The notes under the pieces: generated by a model | Seen by the model: only the letters and a program-made list of their open reading frames with translations | What the model was told of the DNA's origin: nothing | Database searches by the model: none | NCBI GenBank assembly: GCA_026415295.1 | Contig: JAOAHJ010000004.1 | Location: 1 to 64,000, forward strand | Source: Spirochaetota bacterium | GTDB lineage: Bacteria; Spirochaetota; JAAYUW01; JAOAHJ01 | Direction: 5' to 3' | DNA: 64,000 bases | In this document: piece after piece, positions 24,185 through 38,774 of the stretch | How the letters are laid out: each line of letters opens with the position of its first letter | How positions within the stretch are numbered: position 1 is the first letter of the stretch | Translations under genes and position numbers: made by a program

Positions 24185-25135
24185 TTATTTAATTATTGTT
24201 AAGCTAAAAATTGTAAATATAAAAATTAAAAAGATAATAATTTTAAAATGGTTTAATCCAACAATAATATTTTCCATTTCTGGAGGTTTTCCTTCAAATT
24301 TATAACAATTAGGTTTTTCAAAACTCAAATTTTGAATACCTGCAAATGCAGACATTGGATAGGTGCCATTTATTTTTATATTACCATATTTTTTAATATA
24401 TTTTAAACTGTTTAATGGATTAATAGGAATAATAAATATTATGGACAATCGTGCTGGAATAAAGTTTAATATATCATCTGTTCTAGCACAAAATTTTCCA
24501 AAAAATTCATATTTTTCATTTCTATATCCAAATAGAGCATCATATGTATTTACAATTCTATATATTATACTTCCATATAGTCCGAATATTAAGAAGTAAA
24601 AAATAGGAGCAAGTATACTGTCAGGAATATTCTCTGAAAGACTTTCAAGGGCAGCTGAATAAAGTTGATTTTTATTAAGGTTTTCAACATTTCTACTTAC
24701 TATTTTGGAAACTTCATTTCTTAATTTAAAAATGTCTCCTGTAATACAATTATTTACATGAATATAGAGTGATCTTATAGAAAATGTAGACTTTAATATT
24801 AAAGAATCTATTAAAATCTGTAAGCAAAATATTATTTTATAAACATTTTTATTAAAAATAATAGAAATTATTAATTCTAAGTATTTTTCTATTAATGATT
24901 TAAGTAAAAATATTATAAAAATCCAAAAACTTACTTCTATTATTAAAGAAAACATTCCGGAAAAAAAATAGATTGTTTTTCTAATTTTATCTTTTTTAAA
25001 ATTTATTTTCTCGATAATTTTATAAGTTTTTTTCCCTAAAAACCCCATATAGCAGACAGGGTGAATAATTGAAGGATATTCTCCAAATATAATATCTATA
25101 AGAAAAGCTAAAATAAAAACAATAATTTTTTCTAT
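24185..25135 (-). CDS. cbiB: Adenosylcobinamide-phosphate synthase CbiB, probable ATA start
   Basis: Membrane enzyme attaching aminopropanol (phosphate) to adenosylcobyric acid in cobalamin synthesis. Diagnostic blocks: LESLSENIPDSILAPIFY, YRIVNTYDALFGYR, ARTDDILNFIPARLS and YPMSAFAGIQN. The first ATG (25048) would cut off the conserved N-terminal block FLIDIIFGEYPSIIHPVCYMG, which is encoded in frame just upstream. In that frame there is no ATG, GTG or TTG after the previous gene's stop. A ribosome binding site (AAAAAGGA) is followed six bases later by ATA at 25135-25133, the best start, giving 316 residues; ATT codons lie nearby. Five membrane helices are likely. The gene starts 20 bases after the unknown 151-residue gene and precedes cobD. 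Confidence 0.85.
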   Translation of the reverse strand: MEKIIVFILAFLIDIIFGEYPSIIHPVCYMGFLGKKTYKIIEKINFKKDKIRKTIYFFSGMFSLIIEVSFWIFIIFLLKSLIEKYLELIISIIFNKNVYKIIFCLQILIDSLILKSTFSIRSLYIHVNNCITGDIFKLRNEVSKIVSRNVENLNKNQLYSAALESLSENIPDSILAPIFYFLIFGLYGSIIYRIVNTYDALFGYRNEKYEFFGKFCARTDDILNFIPARLSIIFIIPINPLNSLKYIKKYGNIKINGTYPMSAFAGIQNLSFEKPNCYKFEGKPPEMENIIVGLNHFKIIIFLIFIFTIFSLTIIK

Positions 25136-25155
25136 AACTTTTCCTTTTTTTAATT

Positions 25156-30414: not shown

Positions 30415-31014
30415 ATGAATAATATTTTTCAAGCTGGTGGTATTTTAATGATACCTTTATTTTTAACATCAATTTTTGCTTTTGCAATAATACTTGAAAG
30501 ATTTGTTTATTATAATAAAATAAATGATTTTAAGGAAAATAATTTTTTAAGATTAAAATCTTTTATATTAGCTAAAAGTTATGATCAATCTATTGCTTAT
30601 CTTAAAAATTTTAAATCTCCAATTTCAATGATATCTGAAACCTTAATAAAAGAGAAAAATTTAACAAATGTGGACCTTGAACTAGTAGCTGAGCTCGAAA
30701 ACATAAAAGCTTCAAATAATATTTATAAATTTTTACCTATATTAAAAGTATTACCTAATCTTTCCACAATGCTTGGTCTTTTAGGTACTGTATTGGGAAT
30801 GATTAAAAATTTTGCAATTGTAGCTCAAGTTGGGACTGGTGACCCAAAAGCTCTTGCATCAGGTATTTCTGAAGCTCTAATTACTACTGCTACTGGATTG
30901 TTTATAGCAATTCCTATAATGCTGTTTTATACAATTTTAGAAAACAAAGCTTCAAATATTGAAGATAATATTCAGGTTTATACCAGTGAAATATTAAAAT
31001 TTTTAAAAGATTAA
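30415..31014 (+). CDS. exbB: ExbB/TolQ/MotA-family proton channel protein
   Basis: Inner-membrane motor subunit of the TonB or Tol system. One N-terminal membrane helix (about residues 5-25) is followed by a cytoplasmic part and two further helices (about 113-135 and 155-178). The signature PNLSTMLGLLGTVLGMIKNF (about 115-134) and the segment ISEALITTATGLFIAIPIML (about 155-174) with its conserved Thr residues are intact. Length 199 matches short ExbB proteins. AGGAG ribosome binding site. Its partners exbD and tonB are encoded about 4 kb downstream on the same strand, after two CBS proteins and an RNase R-like gene. Confidence 0.9.
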   Translation: MNNIFQAGGILMIPLFLTSIFAFAIILERFVYYNKINDFKENNFLRLKSFILAKSYDQSIAYLKNFKSPISMISETLIKEKNLTNVDLELVAELENIKASNNIYKFLPILKVLPNLSTMLGLLGTVLGMIKNFAIVAQVGTGDPKALASGISEALITTATGLFIAIPIMLFYTILENKASNIEDNIQVYTSEILKFLKD

Positions 31015-31051
31015 ATGTTAAAATTTTTATAAGTTTATATATATTATAATT

Positions 31052-32065
31052 GTGGAAATTCAGATAATATTATTGATAATTTTAATTTCTTTTTCTGCTT
31101 TTTTTTCTTCTTCTGAAACTGTATTATATCTTGTTAAAGATTATTTTTTTAATAAAAAATCAAAAAATTATAGTATTTATAGTTTTATTAAAAGAAATGA
31201 AGAAAATATTCTTCCATTAATTCTTTTTTCAAATACTGTTGTTAATATATTTATAGGTTTGCTAACTGAAAATATAGGGTATAAGTTGTTTCCAACAGAT
31301 ACAAATATTTTTATAATAATAATTGGATCTACTATTATATTGTTGATATTTGGAGAAATACTTCCCAAAAAAATAGGTATTTCCCTACATAAAATTATAT
31401 ATCCTTTCAATTTTTTTATATTATATTATCTTTTTATTTTTCTTAAAAATTTAAATAAAATAATATCCTTCTTTTTGAAACCTTTTTTTAAAATAAAAAA
31501 AGAAAATAATTTTATTGAACAAAAGGAGATAATATTAATTTTGAATGATGCTTTTAAAAATAATCTTATTAATTATTATCAATATAAACTTTTTTTAAAT
31601 GTAATTAATACAAAAAATAGGTTAGTTAAAGATATTATGATTCCATATAAATATGTTTTATTTATAAATGATTCTATGAACCTTAATCAAATCTATTCTA
31701 TCTTTTTAAGAGAATATAATTTTTTTATACCCGTATATTATCCTGATAAAAATTTTATTTTAGGTTATATAGATAAAAGAGATTTTATAAATTATATTAA
31801 TGAAGAATATGGAAATATAAGCAATTTATTAAAAATAAATAATGAAAAAGAGAAAACTATTGTTGAGTATTTAATTAAAAAATTTATTCGTAAACCAGAA
31901 ATTATTTATGAGAAAGCTAATTTATCTAAAGTTTTGGATATAATTTTTAATAAGGGAGAAGAGATAATTTTTGTAATTGATGAATATTTTCAGTTTTCTG
32001 GAATAGTTTTCTCAAATTATTTAGTTAATAAAATTTTAAATGTTAATTTAAATAGTAATAAATAA
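31052..32065 (+). CDS. CNNM/CorC-like membrane protein with CBS pair (short form)
   Basis: DUF21-CBS protein of the HlyC/CorC/CNNM group linked to Mg2+ or Co2+ handling. The N-terminus ISFSAFFSSSETVLYLV is the DUF21 signature, followed by a membrane domain with IFGEILPKKIGI near residue 100. Two CBS motifs follow (VKDIMIPYKYVLFIND near 193 and an IFVIDEYFQFSGIV-type ending near 309). The C-terminal CorC domain found in the family is absent, giving 337 residues. A GTG start is used, without a clear Shine-Dalgarno sequence. The next gene is a paralogue four bases downstream, suggesting a heteromeric pair. Confidence 0.82.
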   Translation: MEIQIILLIILISFSAFFSSSETVLYLVKDYFFNKKSKNYSIYSFIKRNEENILPLILFSNTVVNIFIGLLTENIGYKLFPTDTNIFIIIIGSTIILLIFGEILPKKIGISLHKIIYPFNFFILYYLFIFLKNLNKIISFFLKPFFKIKKENNFIEQKEIILILNDAFKNNLINYYQYKLFLNVINTKNRLVKDIMIPYKYVLFINDSMNLNQIYSIFLREYNFFIPVYYPDKNFILGYIDKRDFINYINEEYGNISNLLKINNEKEKTIVEYLIKKFIRKPEIIYEKANLSKVLDIIFNKGEEIIFVIDEYFQFSGIVFSNYLVNKILNVNLNSNK

Positions 32066-32068
32066 TTA

Positions 32069-33349
32069 TTGAAAACTAAAGCAATGAAATTACATTATAT
32101 TTTTTTATCTTTTATTTTTATTCTTTTAGAAGGTTTTTTTGCTGGTTCAGAAACAGGTTTTTTTTCTCTTGATCTTATACTATTGAAATTTAAAAGTTCA
32201 TATAATAAATGGGCAGATATACTTCACAAATTTACAAAGAAAAGAGAGAAAATAATTCTTGTATCTCTTCTTGGTACCAATTTTTGTGTTATTGCTTCAA
32301 CTCAATTGATGAGCTATTCACTTGGAGATATAAAATTTAAGTATTTTTTTATGATGGCAATATTCCCTTTTATTGTTCTTTTTATTGGCGAAATAATTCC
32401 AAAATTAATTTTTTCAAGAGTTCCTTTTTATTTATCAAAATATTCATATTACCCATTTAAATTTTTACAAATCATTTTTTATCCTATTATTTTTTTCTTT
32501 GAAAAATTCATAAGTATTGTTGATTTATTATTTAATATAAATAGAGAATTAAATGATGAAGTTTCGAAAGACATAGAAAGTTCTTTTATAAGAAAATCAA
32601 TAAAAGACATTTTTGAAAAAGAGAGTTCAATATTGAATAATATTGTTGAATTTGAAAACCAAAAGATAATTTATTTTAAAAAACCATTTGCATTTTACCA
32701 ATTAATACATTTTAATGAAGAAGAATTTCAAAATTGTTCTTTAATAAATTTAAAGGATAAAATATTAAATATTTTGAAAACAAAATCTGTTGATTATATT
32801 ATTCTTATTAAAAAAGATTTTTCTAAAATATTTGGTTATATTGATATTAAAAAAATCTTTAATTTTCTATATTCAAAAGATGAAGATAATAATATAATAA
32901 AAGATAAATTTTATATCCTTGAAATACCTATCTATTTATTTGAAAGTTCAAATTTATTAAATTTACTTGAAATTTATAATAAAACCAATTCAAACTTATT
33001 TTTTTCAGTAAATCAATATGGTTCAGTTTCTGGTGTAGTAAATATAAACGATATTTTTAATTTATTTTATGGAGATATTTTTTTACAAAGAGAAAATAAA
33101 ATATTTTATACTGAAAAGGTTTCTGAAAAAGTTTATATTTGTGATTCTAATTTGAATATTAAATATTTAAAAAATTTAATTAATATTGAAATAAAAGAAG
33201 GTAGATATTCTACATTAAATGGTTTTTTACAATACTTAACTGGGAAAATACTTTCCCAAGGAGATAAAATAGAATATCAAAATGTTATTTTTGAAGTAAT
33301 TTCTGTTAATAAAAGGGTTCCAGATAAAATAAAGATTTCTTTAATTTAA
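32069..33349 (+). CDS. CNNM/CorC-like membrane protein with CorC domain
   Basis: Second DUF21-CBS protein. The start FEGFF-like pattern reads LLEGFFAGSETGFFSLDLI at about residues 20-38, typical of DUF21. IGEIIPKLIF near 107 repeats the conserved Gly-Glu-x-x-Pro-Lys. A degenerate CBS pair follows (about 210-345). The last 75 residues form the CorC/HlyC C-terminal domain (GRYSTLNGFLQYLTGKI, then EYQNVIFEVI). The start is uncertain: a TTG at 32069 or an ATG at 32084, neither with a Shine-Dalgarno sequence. It is four bases from its paralogue, which lacks the CorC domain. Probable role: divalent cation transport or its regulation at the inner membrane. Confidence 0.82.
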   Translation: MKTKAMKLHYIFLSFIFILLEGFFAGSETGFFSLDLILLKFKSSYNKWADILHKFTKKREKIILVSLLGTNFCVIASTQLMSYSLGDIKFKYFFMMAIFPFIVLFIGEIIPKLIFSRVPFYLSKYSYYPFKFLQIIFYPIIFFFEKFISIVDLLFNINRELNDEVSKDIESSFIRKSIKDIFEKESSILNNIVEFENQKIIYFKKPFAFYQLIHFNEEEFQNCSLINLKDKILNILKTKSVDYIILIKKDFSKIFGYIDIKKIFNFLYSKDEDNNIIKDKFYILEIPIYLFESSNLLNLLEIYNKTNSNLFFSVNQYGSVSGVVNINDIFNLFYGDIFLQRENKIFYTEKVSEKVYICDSNLNIKYLKNLINIEIKEGRYSTLNGFLQYLTGKILSQGDKIEYQNVIFEVISVNKRVPDKIKISLI

Positions 33350-33369
33350 ATTTTTATCAAGGGTAAAAA

Positions 33370-35070
33370 ATGAAAATTAAAAAGACAAACATTATTAAGT
33401 ATTTTTTTACAAATGACTCTGGAAAAATCGATGATTTTAAAAAATATTTTAATGTAGATGAAAAATCAAAAATTAAAAAAATAAAAACTATATTAAATGG
33501 TCTTGTTAAAGAAAAAGTAATTTATAAAGAGAAAGATTTATATAAACCATATCTTTTTGCTATAGATAAAGATTTACAATATATAATAAAAAAAATAAAA
33601 ATTAATCCATATTTCCCTAAAAAAGTAATAGACGAAGCAGTTGAAATTTTTCAAAATTATGAAAAAGACATTGAAAATGAAAAAATAAAAAAAGAAAGAG
33701 TTAATTTATGTGATTTGTTTACTGTAACCATGGATGGATTGAATGCAAAAGATTTTGATGATGCTATTGCTTTGTTAAAAGAAGACGATAATTATAAACT
33801 TTTTGTTCACATTGCTGATGTTTCTCACTATGTTAAAATAGGTTCCAGTCTTGATAAAGAGGCTCTTAAAAGAGGTAATTCCTATTATTTTGCAAAGTGC
33901 GTTATTCCAATGTTTCCATTTGAGCTCTCAAATATAGTTTGTTCATTAAATGAAGGAGTTGAAAGACTTACAGTTACGGTTGAATTGATCATTGATAAAA
34001 GAGGAGATATTATTAGTTCAAAATTTTATAACTCTATAATTAATGTAAAAAAAAGGATACCTTATGAAATAGGTAATCAGTTAATAAAAGATAAAAATAA
34101 TCAATATTTTAATTTTCTTAATTTATGTTTGGAATTAAAAAATATACTTTATAAAAAAAGAATAGAAAATAATTCTATAGATTTTGATTTACCAGAAATA
34201 GAGATTGAGTTTAAAAAATCAAATATTTATCCTGATAATATTTATAAATATATTAGAGGAGAAACAGAAAGAATAATAGAGGAATTTATGTTGATTGCAA
34301 ACCAAGCTGTTGCAAAATATCTCCAAGATAAGGCTCCCTTAATATTTAGAGTTCATGATAGCCCACCAGAAGAAAAAAGAGAAATAGTTTATAAATATCT
34401 TGATTTAATGGGTATTAAAAGACCTAGAAGATATAATCAAAGAGAGATAAATGAAATTTTAGAACTAATAAGAGGGAAAAAAGAGGAAAAGCTATTGTCT
34501 TCATACATTTTAAGATCTATGTCCCAAGCTATTTATTCAGATAAAAATATTGGCCATTTTGGTTTAAATTTTGAAGATTATACCCATTTTACATCTCCAA
34601 TAAGAAGATATTCGGATCTAATTATACATAGAATATTAAAAGCAGTTTTAGCAGGAAAGAGGTCTCCTTATGACGAAAATAAATTGAAAAAGATAGCAGA
34701 ATATGTTTCTTTTACAGAAAGAAATGCAACAGAAGCTGAAAGAGATTTTTTAAAATTAAAAGGTGCCAAATTTTTAAAAGATAAAAAAAATTTTATATTC
34801 AAAGCTTTTGTTTCTGGAATTATAGAAGATGGAATATTTTTTGAGCTCGAAGATTACGGTATTGAAGGTTTTGTTCCTTCTTTTATCCTAAATAAAAAAG
34901 GTTATTTTTTTGATAATGAATACTTGGTGTATGTAAAAAAAGATTACAAGGAAGATAGAAATAATCAAAGTATAATTAAACTAGGGGATTATTTTAATGT
35001 TTCTATATTTTATATAAATGAAAAAAGAGGTTTTGTTGATCTAAAAATAGAAGAAAAATTAAGTGATTAA
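33370..35070 (+). CDS. rnr: RNase R/RNase II-family exoribonuclease, short form
   Basis: 3'-5' exoribonuclease. The RNB catalytic block TMDGLNAKDFDDAIAL (about residues 118-133) has the four metal-binding Asp residues. VHIADVSHYV near 143, CVIPMFPFELSNIVCSLNEG near 177-196, YIRGETERIIEEFMLIAN near 297-314 and YTHFTSPIRRYSDL near 402-415 are all typical. A C-terminal S1 domain begins at FKAFVSGIIEDGIFFELED near 477. The N-terminal 115 residues look like a single winged helix; the two cold-shock domains of standard RNase R are not evident, explaining 566 instead of about 750 residues. GGG ribosome binding site; 21 bases after the CBS gene. Confidence 0.9.
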   Translation: MKIKKTNIIKYFFTNDSGKIDDFKKYFNVDEKSKIKKIKTILNGLVKEKVIYKEKDLYKPYLFAIDKDLQYIIKKIKINPYFPKKVIDEAVEIFQNYEKDIENEKIKKERVNLCDLFTVTMDGLNAKDFDDAIALLKEDDNYKLFVHIADVSHYVKIGSSLDKEALKRGNSYYFAKCVIPMFPFELSNIVCSLNEGVERLTVTVELIIDKRGDIISSKFYNSIINVKKRIPYEIGNQLIKDKNNQYFNFLNLCLELKNILYKKRIENNSIDFDLPEIEIEFKKSNIYPDNIYKYIRGETERIIEEFMLIANQAVAKYLQDKAPLIFRVHDSPPEEKREIVYKYLDLMGIKRPRRYNQREINEILELIRGKKEEKLLSSYILRSMSQAIYSDKNIGHFGLNFEDYTHFTSPIRRYSDLIIHRILKAVLAGKRSPYDENKLKKIAEYVSFTERNATEAERDFLKLKGAKFLKDKKNFIFKAFVSGIIEDGIFFELEDYGIEGFVPSFILNKKGYFFDNEYLVYVKKDYKEDRNNQSIIKLGDYFNVSIFYINEKRGFVDLKIEEKLSD

Positions 35071-35164
35071 ATTAAATATAAATTCTAAATTGAAATAAAT
35101 AAATTTTTGTCTAAGATTTATATAAATTAAAAATAAATTGTAAAATAAAAATAAGGTAGAGTTA

Positions 35165-35566
35165 ATGAGAATTAAAAGAAAACAGAGAGAAAGATCTATT
35201 GCTTCTATTGAAATGACCCCCCTTATTGATATGGTTTTTCTATTATTGATATTTTTTTTATTATCAACAACATTAGACAATTTTAGGAGATTAAACATTA
35301 AATTACCTTCATCACAGACTGGAGAAAAAGTTAAAACAAAAGATTTATCAATATATATAGATAGGGAAAATAATATATATTTAGAAAATCAAATTGTTTC
35401 TTTAAAGATTCTTGATGAAAAATTGAAAAGTATAGATAAAGAAAGCATTTCTACTGTTTTTATTAATGGTGATGAAAATACACAGTATAAAATAATTATC
35501 GATATAATGGATATACTGAGAAAAAACGGTTTTTTTAATATATCATTAGGTGTGAAAAGTTATTAA
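35165..35566 (+). CDS. exbD: ExbD/TolR-family energy transducer
   Basis: Periplasmic-facing subunit of the TonB/Tol motor. A short basic cytoplasmic head is followed by the signature IEMTPLIDMVFLLLIFFLLS (about residues 17-36), with the essential Asp in PLIDM. The C-terminal periplasmic domain (about 45-133) contains INGDENTQYKIIIDIMDILR. Length 133 is standard. AAGG ribosome binding site; 30 bases upstream of the TonB gene. The matching ExbB is at 30415-31014. Confidence 0.92.
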   Translation: MRIKRKQRERSIASIEMTPLIDMVFLLLIFFLLSTTLDNFRRLNIKLPSSQTGEKVKTKDLSIYIDRENNIYLENQIVSLKILDEKLKSIDKESISTVFINGDENTQYKIIIDIMDILRKNGFFNISLGVKSY

Positions 35567-35595
35567 TAAAAATAATTAATTAATGAGGTTGGCTT

Positions 35596-36309
35596 ATTAA
35601 AAAATATTTTGTTATTTCTTTAATTTTGCATCTTATAATTATTCTTTATTTATTTAATAGAAATATTTATAAAGACTTTAAAAATTCGGAGTTAAATAAA
35701 GATATAATAGTTAATATTGTTTTTACAGAAGAATCTGAATCAAATTTAAAGTTGGTAGGGAAGCAAGAAGAAATTATTGGCAAAGTAATTTACGAAAAGA
35801 AAGAAAATAAAAATAATACCAAATCCTCTGAGAATAAAATAGAAAAAAAAGAAGAAAATGCTAAAACTTATATTCAGTCAAATTTAGAAAATGAGAAAAA
35901 AATTGATATAAATAAGGAGCAACCAGAAGGAAAAGAAGAAAAAAAAGAGCAGGTTGTAGAAGAAGATAAAAGTATACTATCAGAACTTACAACAGTTAAA
36001 ACTTCATCTGGTGGAGGTACCGAATCATCTGAAATTATATGGGATAATAATGTATCAAGAAAGATTCAGATCAAAATTATTCCTCAAGTACCCGATAGTT
36101 TGAAAAAGTTATCAGGAAAATTTATAGTTATAGTATATATTGAAGTTAATAAATTTGGATCTGTAATATTTGTACAAATATACCAGTCATCAGGTATACC
36201 TGAACTTGATAATATATGTAAAGAAGTAGTAAGAAAATGGGTTTTTAATATGATTTCTGAAGATAGGATAGATTCTGGGAAAGTTACTTTTATCTTTAAT
36301 TTTAATTAA
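35596..36309 (+). CDS. tonB: TonB-like protein, probable ATT start
   Basis: Energy transducer that couples the ExbB/ExbD motor to outer-membrane transporters. Domains: N-terminal membrane anchor (about residues 2-20), a highly charged Lys/Glu-rich linker (about 65-130) that may span the periplasm, and a C-terminal TonB domain (about 150-237) with IYQSSGIPELDNICKEVVRKW. The first TTG (35626) lies inside the anchor. Reading upstream in frame gives IKKYFVISLILHLIIILYLF, with TGA stop at 35584-35586 and no ATG, GTG or TTG. A GAGG site ends seven bases before ATT at 35596, which is therefore the best start. It follows exbD by 30 bases. Confidence 0.83.
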   Translation: MKKYFVISLILHLIIILYLFNRNIYKDFKNSELNKDIIVNIVFTEESESNLKLVGKQEEIIGKVIYEKKENKNNTKSSENKIEKKEENAKTYIQSNLENEKKIDINKEQPEGKEEKKEQVVEEDKSILSELTTVKTSSGGGTESSEIIWDNNVSRKIQIKIIPQVPDSLKKLSGKFIVIVYIEVNKFGSVIFVQIYQSSGIPELDNICKEVVRKWVFNMISEDRIDSGKVTFIFNFN

Positions 36310-36381: not shown

Positions 36382-37629
36382 TTGAAAATATTAGAATTTA
36401 TAAAATACTTATTTCTTTCTAAAGATAATATTGATTTTAATTTGCAGAAAAAATTAAGAGAAAAGGTATCAATAGAAGATAGTTTTATTTTTAATGATAA
36501 AAAATATTATTATAAGATTGATTCTGATGAAGGTTTAGTTTTTTATGATGAAGGTATTAATAAATATCATTTTTTTGGTTATATAAATAATGATAGGGGT
36601 AAAAAAATCTTTTATCAATACTGGTTGCTTGACCCATTAAAACCAACTATTTTTTTTATTCATGGTAATGCAGAAAATTCATCTTCTCATCCATTATTCT
36701 TATTTTATTTTATAAAAAGAGGTTATAATATTCTTACTTTTGACCAGGAAGGTTATGGATCATCTGATGGCATAAGAGGTACAATTGAAGATTTAGATTA
36801 TTATTTCCAAAATATAGATTTAGTATATAAATTTTATTATAACAAATTATTATTTTTAAAAAAAGGGGCTTTAAATTTAGTGTCAACTAATGAGCTAAAG
36901 GATCCAGAGTTTATATTTATTGGTTTTTCAATGGGAGGTTTTGAAGTATTTTATTATTTGTTTTTATTTTTAACAAAAACTTATATTAATAATAAAAATA
37001 ACAACAAAAAAAAATGGGATAACTGTGAATTTAGATATTTAAATTCTGTTAAAAAGATTATATTACTATGCCCATGGCTGTACACTCATAAAAGATTAAC
37101 TAACCATTTTATTTTGTTTTTAATAAGTATATTTTATAAATTTTTTAATCCTTATATTTTACTTTCTCAGAAAACACAAAATGAAATTTTTAAAAAAGGT
37201 GAAGAATTTTATATTGAACTTTATAAAAATTTGACTGATAATTATGATTATTTAAAGAGAAGATTTAAAGATAAGAGAATACACAGATTACGATCTATAA
37301 GGTGGCTTGCTTATATAACTAAATATCAAAATGATCTTTATAAATATATAAAAAAATTATCTATTTTGTTTAATAATAAAAAAAACAAAAGTGATTTATT
37401 AAATTTGAGAAATATTTTAGAATATTATTGTAAGAATATTATTTTTTATATTGGAGAAAATGATATAATAGTTGATCAGAAAAGAATATATAAAATTTCA
37501 GAAATAATACAAAGTATAAGTAAAGAAAAAAATTTATATTCTCTCCCTGGTTTTTGTCATGACTTTTTAGATTATGATGAAAAGAGATTAAATATATTTT
37601 TGGATCTTTTACAAAAGCATTCTTTATAA
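36382..37629 (+). CDS. Alpha/beta hydrolase, serine aminopeptidase-like (TTG start)
   Basis: Cytoplasmic hydrolase of the monoglyceride-lipase/serine-aminopeptidase S33 type. Oxyanion segment FFIHGNAENSSS near residues 91-102, YNILTFDQEGYGSSDG near 115-130, nucleophile elbow GFSMGGFE near 181-188, acid residue in YIGENDIIVD near 360 and the catalytic His in GFCHDFLD near 394 complete the triad. Its 415 residues exceed the usual 300 because of a long insertion between nucleophile and acid (about 205-350), probably a cap. The TTG start is backed by an AGGAG site at optimal distance. It follows tonB by 72 bases. No signal peptide. Substrate unknown. Confidence 0.85.
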   Translation: MKILEFIKYLFLSKDNIDFNLQKKLREKVSIEDSFIFNDKKYYYKIDSDEGLVFYDEGINKYHFFGYINNDRGKKIFYQYWLLDPLKPTIFFIHGNAENSSSHPLFLFYFIKRGYNILTFDQEGYGSSDGIRGTIEDLDYYFQNIDLVYKFYYNKLLFLKKGALNLVSTNELKDPEFIFIGFSMGGFEVFYYLFLFLTKTYINNKNNNKKKWDNCEFRYLNSVKKIILLCPWLYTHKRLTNHFILFLISIFYKFFNPYILLSQKTQNEIFKKGEEFYIELYKNLTDNYDYLKRRFKDKRIHRLRSIRWLAYITKYQNDLYKYIKKLSILFNNKKNKSDLLNLRNILEYYCKNIIFYIGENDIIVDQKRIYKISEIIQSISKEKNLYSLPGFCHDFLDYDEKRLNIFLDLLQKHSL

Positions 37630-37716: not shown

Positions 37717-38205
37717 ATGGTTGATAAAAAAGAAATCCATGAAAAATATGATGAGTTAAAAGAATATATACTTAATGTGAAAAATAGTGCTGGTCCTTTA
37801 ATTAATGTATTACATAAAGCTCAAGAAATATTTGGGTATTTACCAATAGAAGTTCAAAAATTTGTTGCAAGAGAATTAGGTGTTCCGATGTCTCAAGTTT
37901 ATGGTGTAGTTACATTTTACAACTTTTTTACTATGAAACCTAGAGGTAAATATGTAATAAATGTTTGTTTGGGTACTGCATGTTTTGTTAAAGGAGCTAA
38001 TAGAGTATTGGAGTATTTTGAAGAAGAACTTGGAGTAAAACATGGTGAAACAACTAAAGATTTGCTTTTTACACTGAGTTCTGCAAGATGTTTTGGTGCT
38101 TGCGGACTCGCTCCAGCAATTATGGTTAATGAAGAAGTTTATGGTAATGTTGATAAGAAAAAAGTAAAAGAAATTATTAAAAAATATAAAGAAGAGGGGA
38201 AATAG
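37717..38205 (+). CDS. hydC: NuoE/HydC-like [2Fe-2S] subunit
   Basis: Thioredoxin-like ferredoxin subunit of NADH-linked complexes: NuoE, or HydC of electron-bifurcating [FeFe] hydrogenase, or the equivalent subunit of NADP-reducing or formate-linked enzymes. An N-terminal helical bundle with VPMSQVYGVVTFYNFFTM (about residues 55-72) precedes the cluster domain with Cys in CLGTAC (about 85-90) and RCFGACG (about 125-131). Length 162 is normal. AGGAG ribosome binding site; strong upstream TTGACA. It starts an operon with a HATPase gene, a HydD-like gene and the NuoF/HydB gene. Which complex it serves is uncertain since no catalytic subunit follows. Confidence 0.88.
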   Translation: MVDKKEIHEKYDELKEYILNVKNSAGPLINVLHKAQEIFGYLPIEVQKFVARELGVPMSQVYGVVTFYNFFTMKPRGKYVINVCLGTACFVKGANRVLEYFEEELGVKHGETTKDLLFTLSSARCFGACGLAPAIMVNEEVYGNVDKKKVKEIIKKYKEEGK

Positions 38206-38207
38206 TT

Positions 38208-38774
38208 CTGGATGAATTATGTCTTCATATAATTGATCTTGTTGAAAATTCAATTTCTGCCAAAAGTACATTAATAAAAATAATAATAGAATTAAATGAT
38301 AATAAAAATATATTGAAAATTAGAATTGAAGATAATGGGAAAGGAATAGAAAAAGACAAGTTAAATTTAATATTATCGCCTTTTTATACTACAAAACAAG
38401 AGAGAGAAAAAAAAGTAGGGCTTGGGCTTCCACTTTTCAAAATGAATGCTCTTTTAACAGGAGGTAATTTTAATATTTTTTCTGAACCAGGGAAAGGAAC
38501 AATTGTAGAAGCTATCTTTGTTAAAGATAACATTGATAGACAACCACTTGGTAAATTATATGATACTATTTTTACTTTAATTATAGGCCATGAAGATATT
38601 AATTTTTATATAAAAATATCTAACAATGAGAAAGAGTTTATTATTGATACTAAGGTGATAAAAGATGAACTGCAAGGTATAAGTTTATCAAATCCTGATG
38701 TTATAAATTTTTTAAAAGATTATATTAAGAATGGACTTGAAGAGATAAATTTAAATTGTGAGAAGATTTATTAA
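38208..38774 (+). CDS. HATPase-domain protein of hydrogenase-type operon, probable CTG start
   Basis: Stand-alone GHKL ATPase domain without a histidine phosphorylation domain. Such genes are often found between the HydC and HydB genes in anaerobes. N box VENSISA near residue 14, G1 box EDNGKGIEKDKLN, G2 box KVGLGLPLFKM and the GKGT segment are intact. The conserved family start (ELCLHIIDLVENS) lies upstream of the first TTG at 38313. In that open frame, which begins after a stop at 38187-38189, there is no ATG, GTG or TTG. A GGGG site eight bases before CTG at 38208 marks this as likely start, two bases after the hydC stop. Predicted 188 residues; role perhaps regulation by phosphorylation or binding. 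Confidence 0.8.
   Translation: MDELCLHIIDLVENSISAKSTLIKIIIELNDNKNILKIRIEDNGKGIEKDKLNLILSPFYTTKQEREKKVGLGLPLFKMNALLTGGNFNIFSEPGKGTIVEAIFVKDNIDRQPLGKLYDTIFTLIIGHEDINFYIKISNNEKEFIIDTKVIKDELQGISLSNPDVINFLKDYIKNGLEEINLNCEKIY

Follow-up and report, generated by a model that had tools for sequence, protein, structure and literature searches.

The window, by which we mean the whole stretch of 64,000 nucleotides that was analysed, belongs to an assembly of 2.1 Mb (39 contigs, about 23% GC) and contains the genes exbD and tonB side by side, an order that is also found in relatives. A search of the genome contigs for ExbD gave distant homologues only. The tonB product matches the TonB_C profile (PF03544) with an E-value of 2.9e-5 and 25.6 bits in a search of the genome, above the cut-off of 24.6, and scored 23.4 bits, just below the cut-off, in a second Pfam search; it is encoded by the sole TonB_C gene found in the assembly. 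In the region 30415-36309, two genes for CorC/HlyC-like membrane proteins and an RNase R-like gene separate an exbB-like gene from exbD-tonB. The assembly yielded only one TonB-dependent receptor barrel (PF00593; G000:C22:2400-3797, minus strand), and TonB may accordingly have just one transporter to energise. The positions of the features are given in Table 1.

Table 1. Genes and start-site features of the window
Feature	Position	Strand	Remarks
cobD/cbiB	24185..25135	-	putative start ATA at 25135; SD AAGGA at 25142-25146
exbB-like gene	30415-31014		assigned from the sequence
exbD	35165..35566	+	starts with ATG; immediately precedes tonB; aligns with a homologue in the G002 locus
Out-of-frame ATG mini-frame (MRLAY)	35583..35600	+	ATG AGG TTG GCT TAT TAA; TAA overlaps the ATT
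Shine-Dalgarno (SD) GAGGT	35585..35589	+	GAGG at 35585-35588
tonB	35596..36309	+	237 aa; membrane anchor after a short KK stretch, then a charged linker and the TonB_C domain
ATT, proposed tonB start codon	35596..35598	+	
Ser-X3-His (SLILH), ExbB-contacting anchor motif	35617..35631	+	S8 and H12 invariant in the five-protein alignment
TTG, first canonical in-frame start	35626..35628	+	one residue before the anchor His
SD-like GAGGGG of the HATPase_c-type gene	38194..38199	+	from the sequence
HATPase_c-type ATP-binding protein	38208..38774	+	putative start CTG at 38208; Pfam

The tonB frame is closed upstream by an in-frame TGA (35584-35586, plus strand) and remains open as far as position 36309. 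As the initial annotation had stated, no ATG, GTG or TTG is present in this frame between the TGA and the TTG at 35626, and a GAGG is located seven bases (TTGGCTT) before the ATT. Counting AATGAGGT, the SD GAGGT matches seven of the eight bases of AAGGAGGT; aligned to AAGGAGGT, its spacing is 6, which lies within the normal range of 3-8 observed for ATG genes of the same genome, defined as the cluster formed by SDs of at least five bases. The 16S gene, sought for its anti-SD, was not found in the assembly. The codons preceding the anchor helix read GGT TGG CTT ATT AAA AAA, and among them only ATT differs from ATG by a single change in codon position 1 or 3. The predicted RNA structure at the start is ordinary (z -0.74). 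It should be noted that ATT is common in this DNA of 22% GC and is meaningless by itself, and that an SD match of at least five bases precedes 2.7% of arbitrary interior codons versus 35% of first ATGs; given these chance rates, the combination of SD and ATT constitutes only moderate evidence.

The main weight in favour of an ATT start lies instead in the conserved anchor, which must be translated. In an alignment of the tonB product with four homologues the Ser and the His of the anchor are invariant; the counterpart of SLILH in E. coli TonB is SVCIH, whose Ser16 and His20 touch ExbB in the structure (PMC12215075). The Ser-X3-His motif is complete only if initiation takes place upstream of the TTG at 35626. 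Because this TTG is located one residue before the His, a protein started there would lack the Ser and about half of the helix, leaving about 10 hydrophobic residues before NRN. As such a start would delete the invariant Ser and halve the anchor, initiation upstream of the TTG appears to be close to required. In G001 and G003, two relatives of the same order, the entire anchor is encoded from an ATG. With a start at ATT, the N-terminus would be shorter than in any aligned homologue, the His being residue 12 instead of residues 14-24. The initial proposal that ATT would provide a proper anchor is thus supported by the restored Ser-X3-His, by the correct spacing of the SD, and by near-cognate starts elsewhere in the lineage.

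Based on this, we consider it probable (about 0.82) that tonB is translated from the ATT at 35596. The 30S subunit would be positioned by pairing of GAGGT with the anti-SD, the initiator tRNA would pair with AUU at two positions, leaving a mismatch at the third base, and the product would begin with the anchor fMet-KKYFVISLILHLIIILYLF. We infer that ATT, and not another codon, is used in vivo. By analogy with known cases, the output from ATT is likely to be well below that of AUG, and a regulatory role for this start is plausible: a weak ATT following exbD, together with the presumed discrimination by IF3, may keep TonB scarce relative to ExbB and ExbD. The possibility that ATT is conserved among tonB orthologues, which the initial annotation had proposed to check, did not hold, since tonB begins with ATG in both G001 and G003, the two relatives with a readable start. 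The absence of ATT from these genes speaks against a switch that is old and conserved in tonB. Unusual initiation machinery, in the form of a loss of IF3 or an unusual initiator tRNA, was considered and rejected: IF3 is present, as is a tRNA-Met(CAT) with a GGG/CCC anticodon stem.

The alternative that deserves most attention is that a one-base insertion, either an assembly error or a true mutation of this strain, has split a normal start, the ATG at 35583, from the tonB frame. This ATG, which the initial annotation had not mentioned, lies 13 bases upstream of the ATT in the neighbouring frame, and readthrough from it after one indel would make the anchor His residue 16, the position that it has in G001; moreover, MAG assemblies can hold frame errors, and G001 contains one frameshift-like join. 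However, the coding DNA of the present genome that was aligned with orthologues, 293 kb in all, showed no frameshift, while about 0.9% of genes have near-cognate starts; by comparison, an indel in this short stretch is improbable. In addition, the ATG at 35583 is not preceded by an SD, and GAGGT, located downstream of it, is spaced for the ATT; the stretch from this ATG to the TAA contains no long homopolymer, and a chance out-of-frame ATG is not unusual in such a stretch. We therefore regard an insertion as unlikely.

Initiation at the TTG at 35626, yielding a TonB with a truncated anchor, seems less credible still. TTG is a legal start used by about one-tenth of the genes here, but this one has no upstream SD, and its use would sacrifice the Ser even though Ser and His are both invariant in the homologues. 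Finally, tonB could be a decaying pseudogene that has lost its start and is not translated. The ATG starts in two relatives imply that a canonical tonB start has probably been lost, which fits this idea; yet the frame is intact up to the C-terminal domain, its coding score resembles that of other genes, the SD has been maintained, and no other TonB_C gene was found in this genome, which has exbB, exbD and one receptor barrel. Decay is, in our view, the least probable of these alternatives, and translation from ATT remains the preferred reading.

Near-cognate starts are also predicted for other genes of the window. The two further cases named in the initial annotation, with ATA and CTG, correspond to cobD (ATA at 25135, minus strand) and to the HATPase_c-type gene (CTG at 38208). 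In a CobD started at ATA, residue 8 corresponds to position 2 of the Pfam CobD_Cbib profile, and the first ATG would be residue 30; no cobD orthologues were found in G001-G003. The HATPase gene is settled by its orthologues, which start at the residue aligned with the CTG, with TTG in G002 and G003 and with ATG in G001. A separate observation concerns a hydrolase-like gene in G001 (contig C17), the orthologue of the gene at 36382-37629 just downstream of tonB in the window: it has 155 codons devoid of a canonical in-frame start despite homology in this part, which points to a near-cognate start or, alternatively, to a frame error close to the start.

Elsewhere in the genome (G000), infC starts with ATA preceded by an SD-like AGGGG; its start is near-cognate in G000, G001 and G002, and appears to be ATC in the latter two. 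The thiI gene has a CTG start with GGAGG (G000:C3:59661, plus strand), and this case, too, is settled by orthologues, as G001 and G003 start with ATG at the same residue (L188, L189). Conserved N-termini located upstream of the first canonical codon are found, by Pfam, in cobD, thiI, infC and the HATPase gene. ATA is also the start of a B12-type radical SAM gene. The most telling case is padR, which encodes a PadR-family regulator and starts with ATT (G000:C3:25351-25857, minus strand). Its start, GGAGG-5nt-AT[T/C]-AAA, is shared by the four genomes of the order (relatives: L200, L201, L202), each of which has closely spaced upstream stops. In G001 and G003 an in-frame GTG or TTG overlaps the SD of padR; in G000 and G002 no canonical start is available. 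Signal-peptide-like N-termini with an SD and ATT or ATA, and no earlier canonical start, were also seen at G000:C14:6250 (minus), G000:C10:14572 (minus) and G001:C17:77893, and these three loci are possible further cases.

How common such starts are was addressed in two ways. A scan of 1433 ORFs of at least 90 aa, covering 1.77 Mb or about 84% of the assembly, yielded, with tonB not counted, near-cognate starts of which about six are well supported and four or five less so. As stand-alone proof, the SD scan was rejected because it did not rise above shuffled decoy motifs: it found nine genes with near-cognate starts, compared with 4.9 +/- 3.1 for the decoys, 34 of 200 of which scored as high. 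Random base-calling errors as a source of near-cognate codons were likewise discarded, given that no gene has an SD of at least five bases before AAG, ACG or AGG, which such errors should generate as often as third-base changes; this argument is weak, since the SD scan is not above decoys. For that same reason we adopted a homology survey that ignored SDs and compared the genome with 773 kb of G001 and with individually fetched loci of relatives. By reading the alignments, five of the 567 genes with a homologue were found to require initiation ahead of every canonical codon, a proportion that is somewhat enriched because individual loci had been fetched for those genes. These five, thiI, padR, tonB, the HATPase gene and infC, all have an SD before CTG, ATT or ATA, which in infC and the HATPase gene is the SD-like AGGGG. 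The relatives compared (G001-G003) belong to the same order; the relatives searched included none from its own species, genus or family. It is tempting to speculate, though we regard it as doubtful, that the order uses ATT, ATA, ATC and CTG as functional start codons in nearly 1% of its genes, far more than in the E. coli and S. aureus catalogues, and that some of them, such as padR, form a small fidelity-tuned set to which tonB is a recent recruit.

Gene callers generally consider only ATG, GTG and TTG, and genes of this kind would be truncated or misplaced. In the present genome, this would strip TonB of its motor-contacting anchor, and ThiI, CobD and infC of N-terminal parts. The homology-supported set of near-cognate starts, one of which is kept in four of four genomes, provides a testable list for studying their frequency in AT-rich bacteria and their possible role in the fidelity-sensitive control of expression.

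The locus resembles known ExbB-ExbD-TonB systems in the adjacency of exbD and tonB, the TonB_C domain, the presence of one TonB-dependent receptor barrel, and an anchor with Ser-X3-His-X6-Leu. It differs from them in that the second Ser of SHLS is missing, and in that exbB is located about 4 kb upstream of exbD-tonB. With respect to the start codon, the initial remark that ATT starts are known but rare, with infC as the example, agrees with the published AUU starts of infC, pcnB and cvfC1. E. coli has two AUU-start genes, infC and pcnB, whose weak starts are under IF3 discrimination (PMC9410913). Like these, tonB would be a protein-coding gene with an AUU start; unlike them, the gene concerned is tonB, and its putative AUU start is not kept among relatives. 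In S. aureus, the near-cognate starts of cvfC1 (AUU), ccpN (AUA), infC (AUA) and citZ (AUA) were identified by profiling, with retapamulin, and by reporters, and their output is about 10% of that of AUG (PMC13009471). The SDs are extended there, whereas that of tonB is only GAGGT, and the S. aureus starts have been demonstrated experimentally, whereas those described here are predicted from the sequence. The padR start is comparable to that of ccpN in Firmicutes, likewise a regulator gene with a near-cognate start that is conserved (PMC13009471). According to a published figure, CUG accounts for 0.024% of bacterial starts. Annotation rarely considers near-cognate codons. Thus, near-cognate starts as such are already known, and tonB is an added case; the added value lies in the lineage context and in the conserved padR start.
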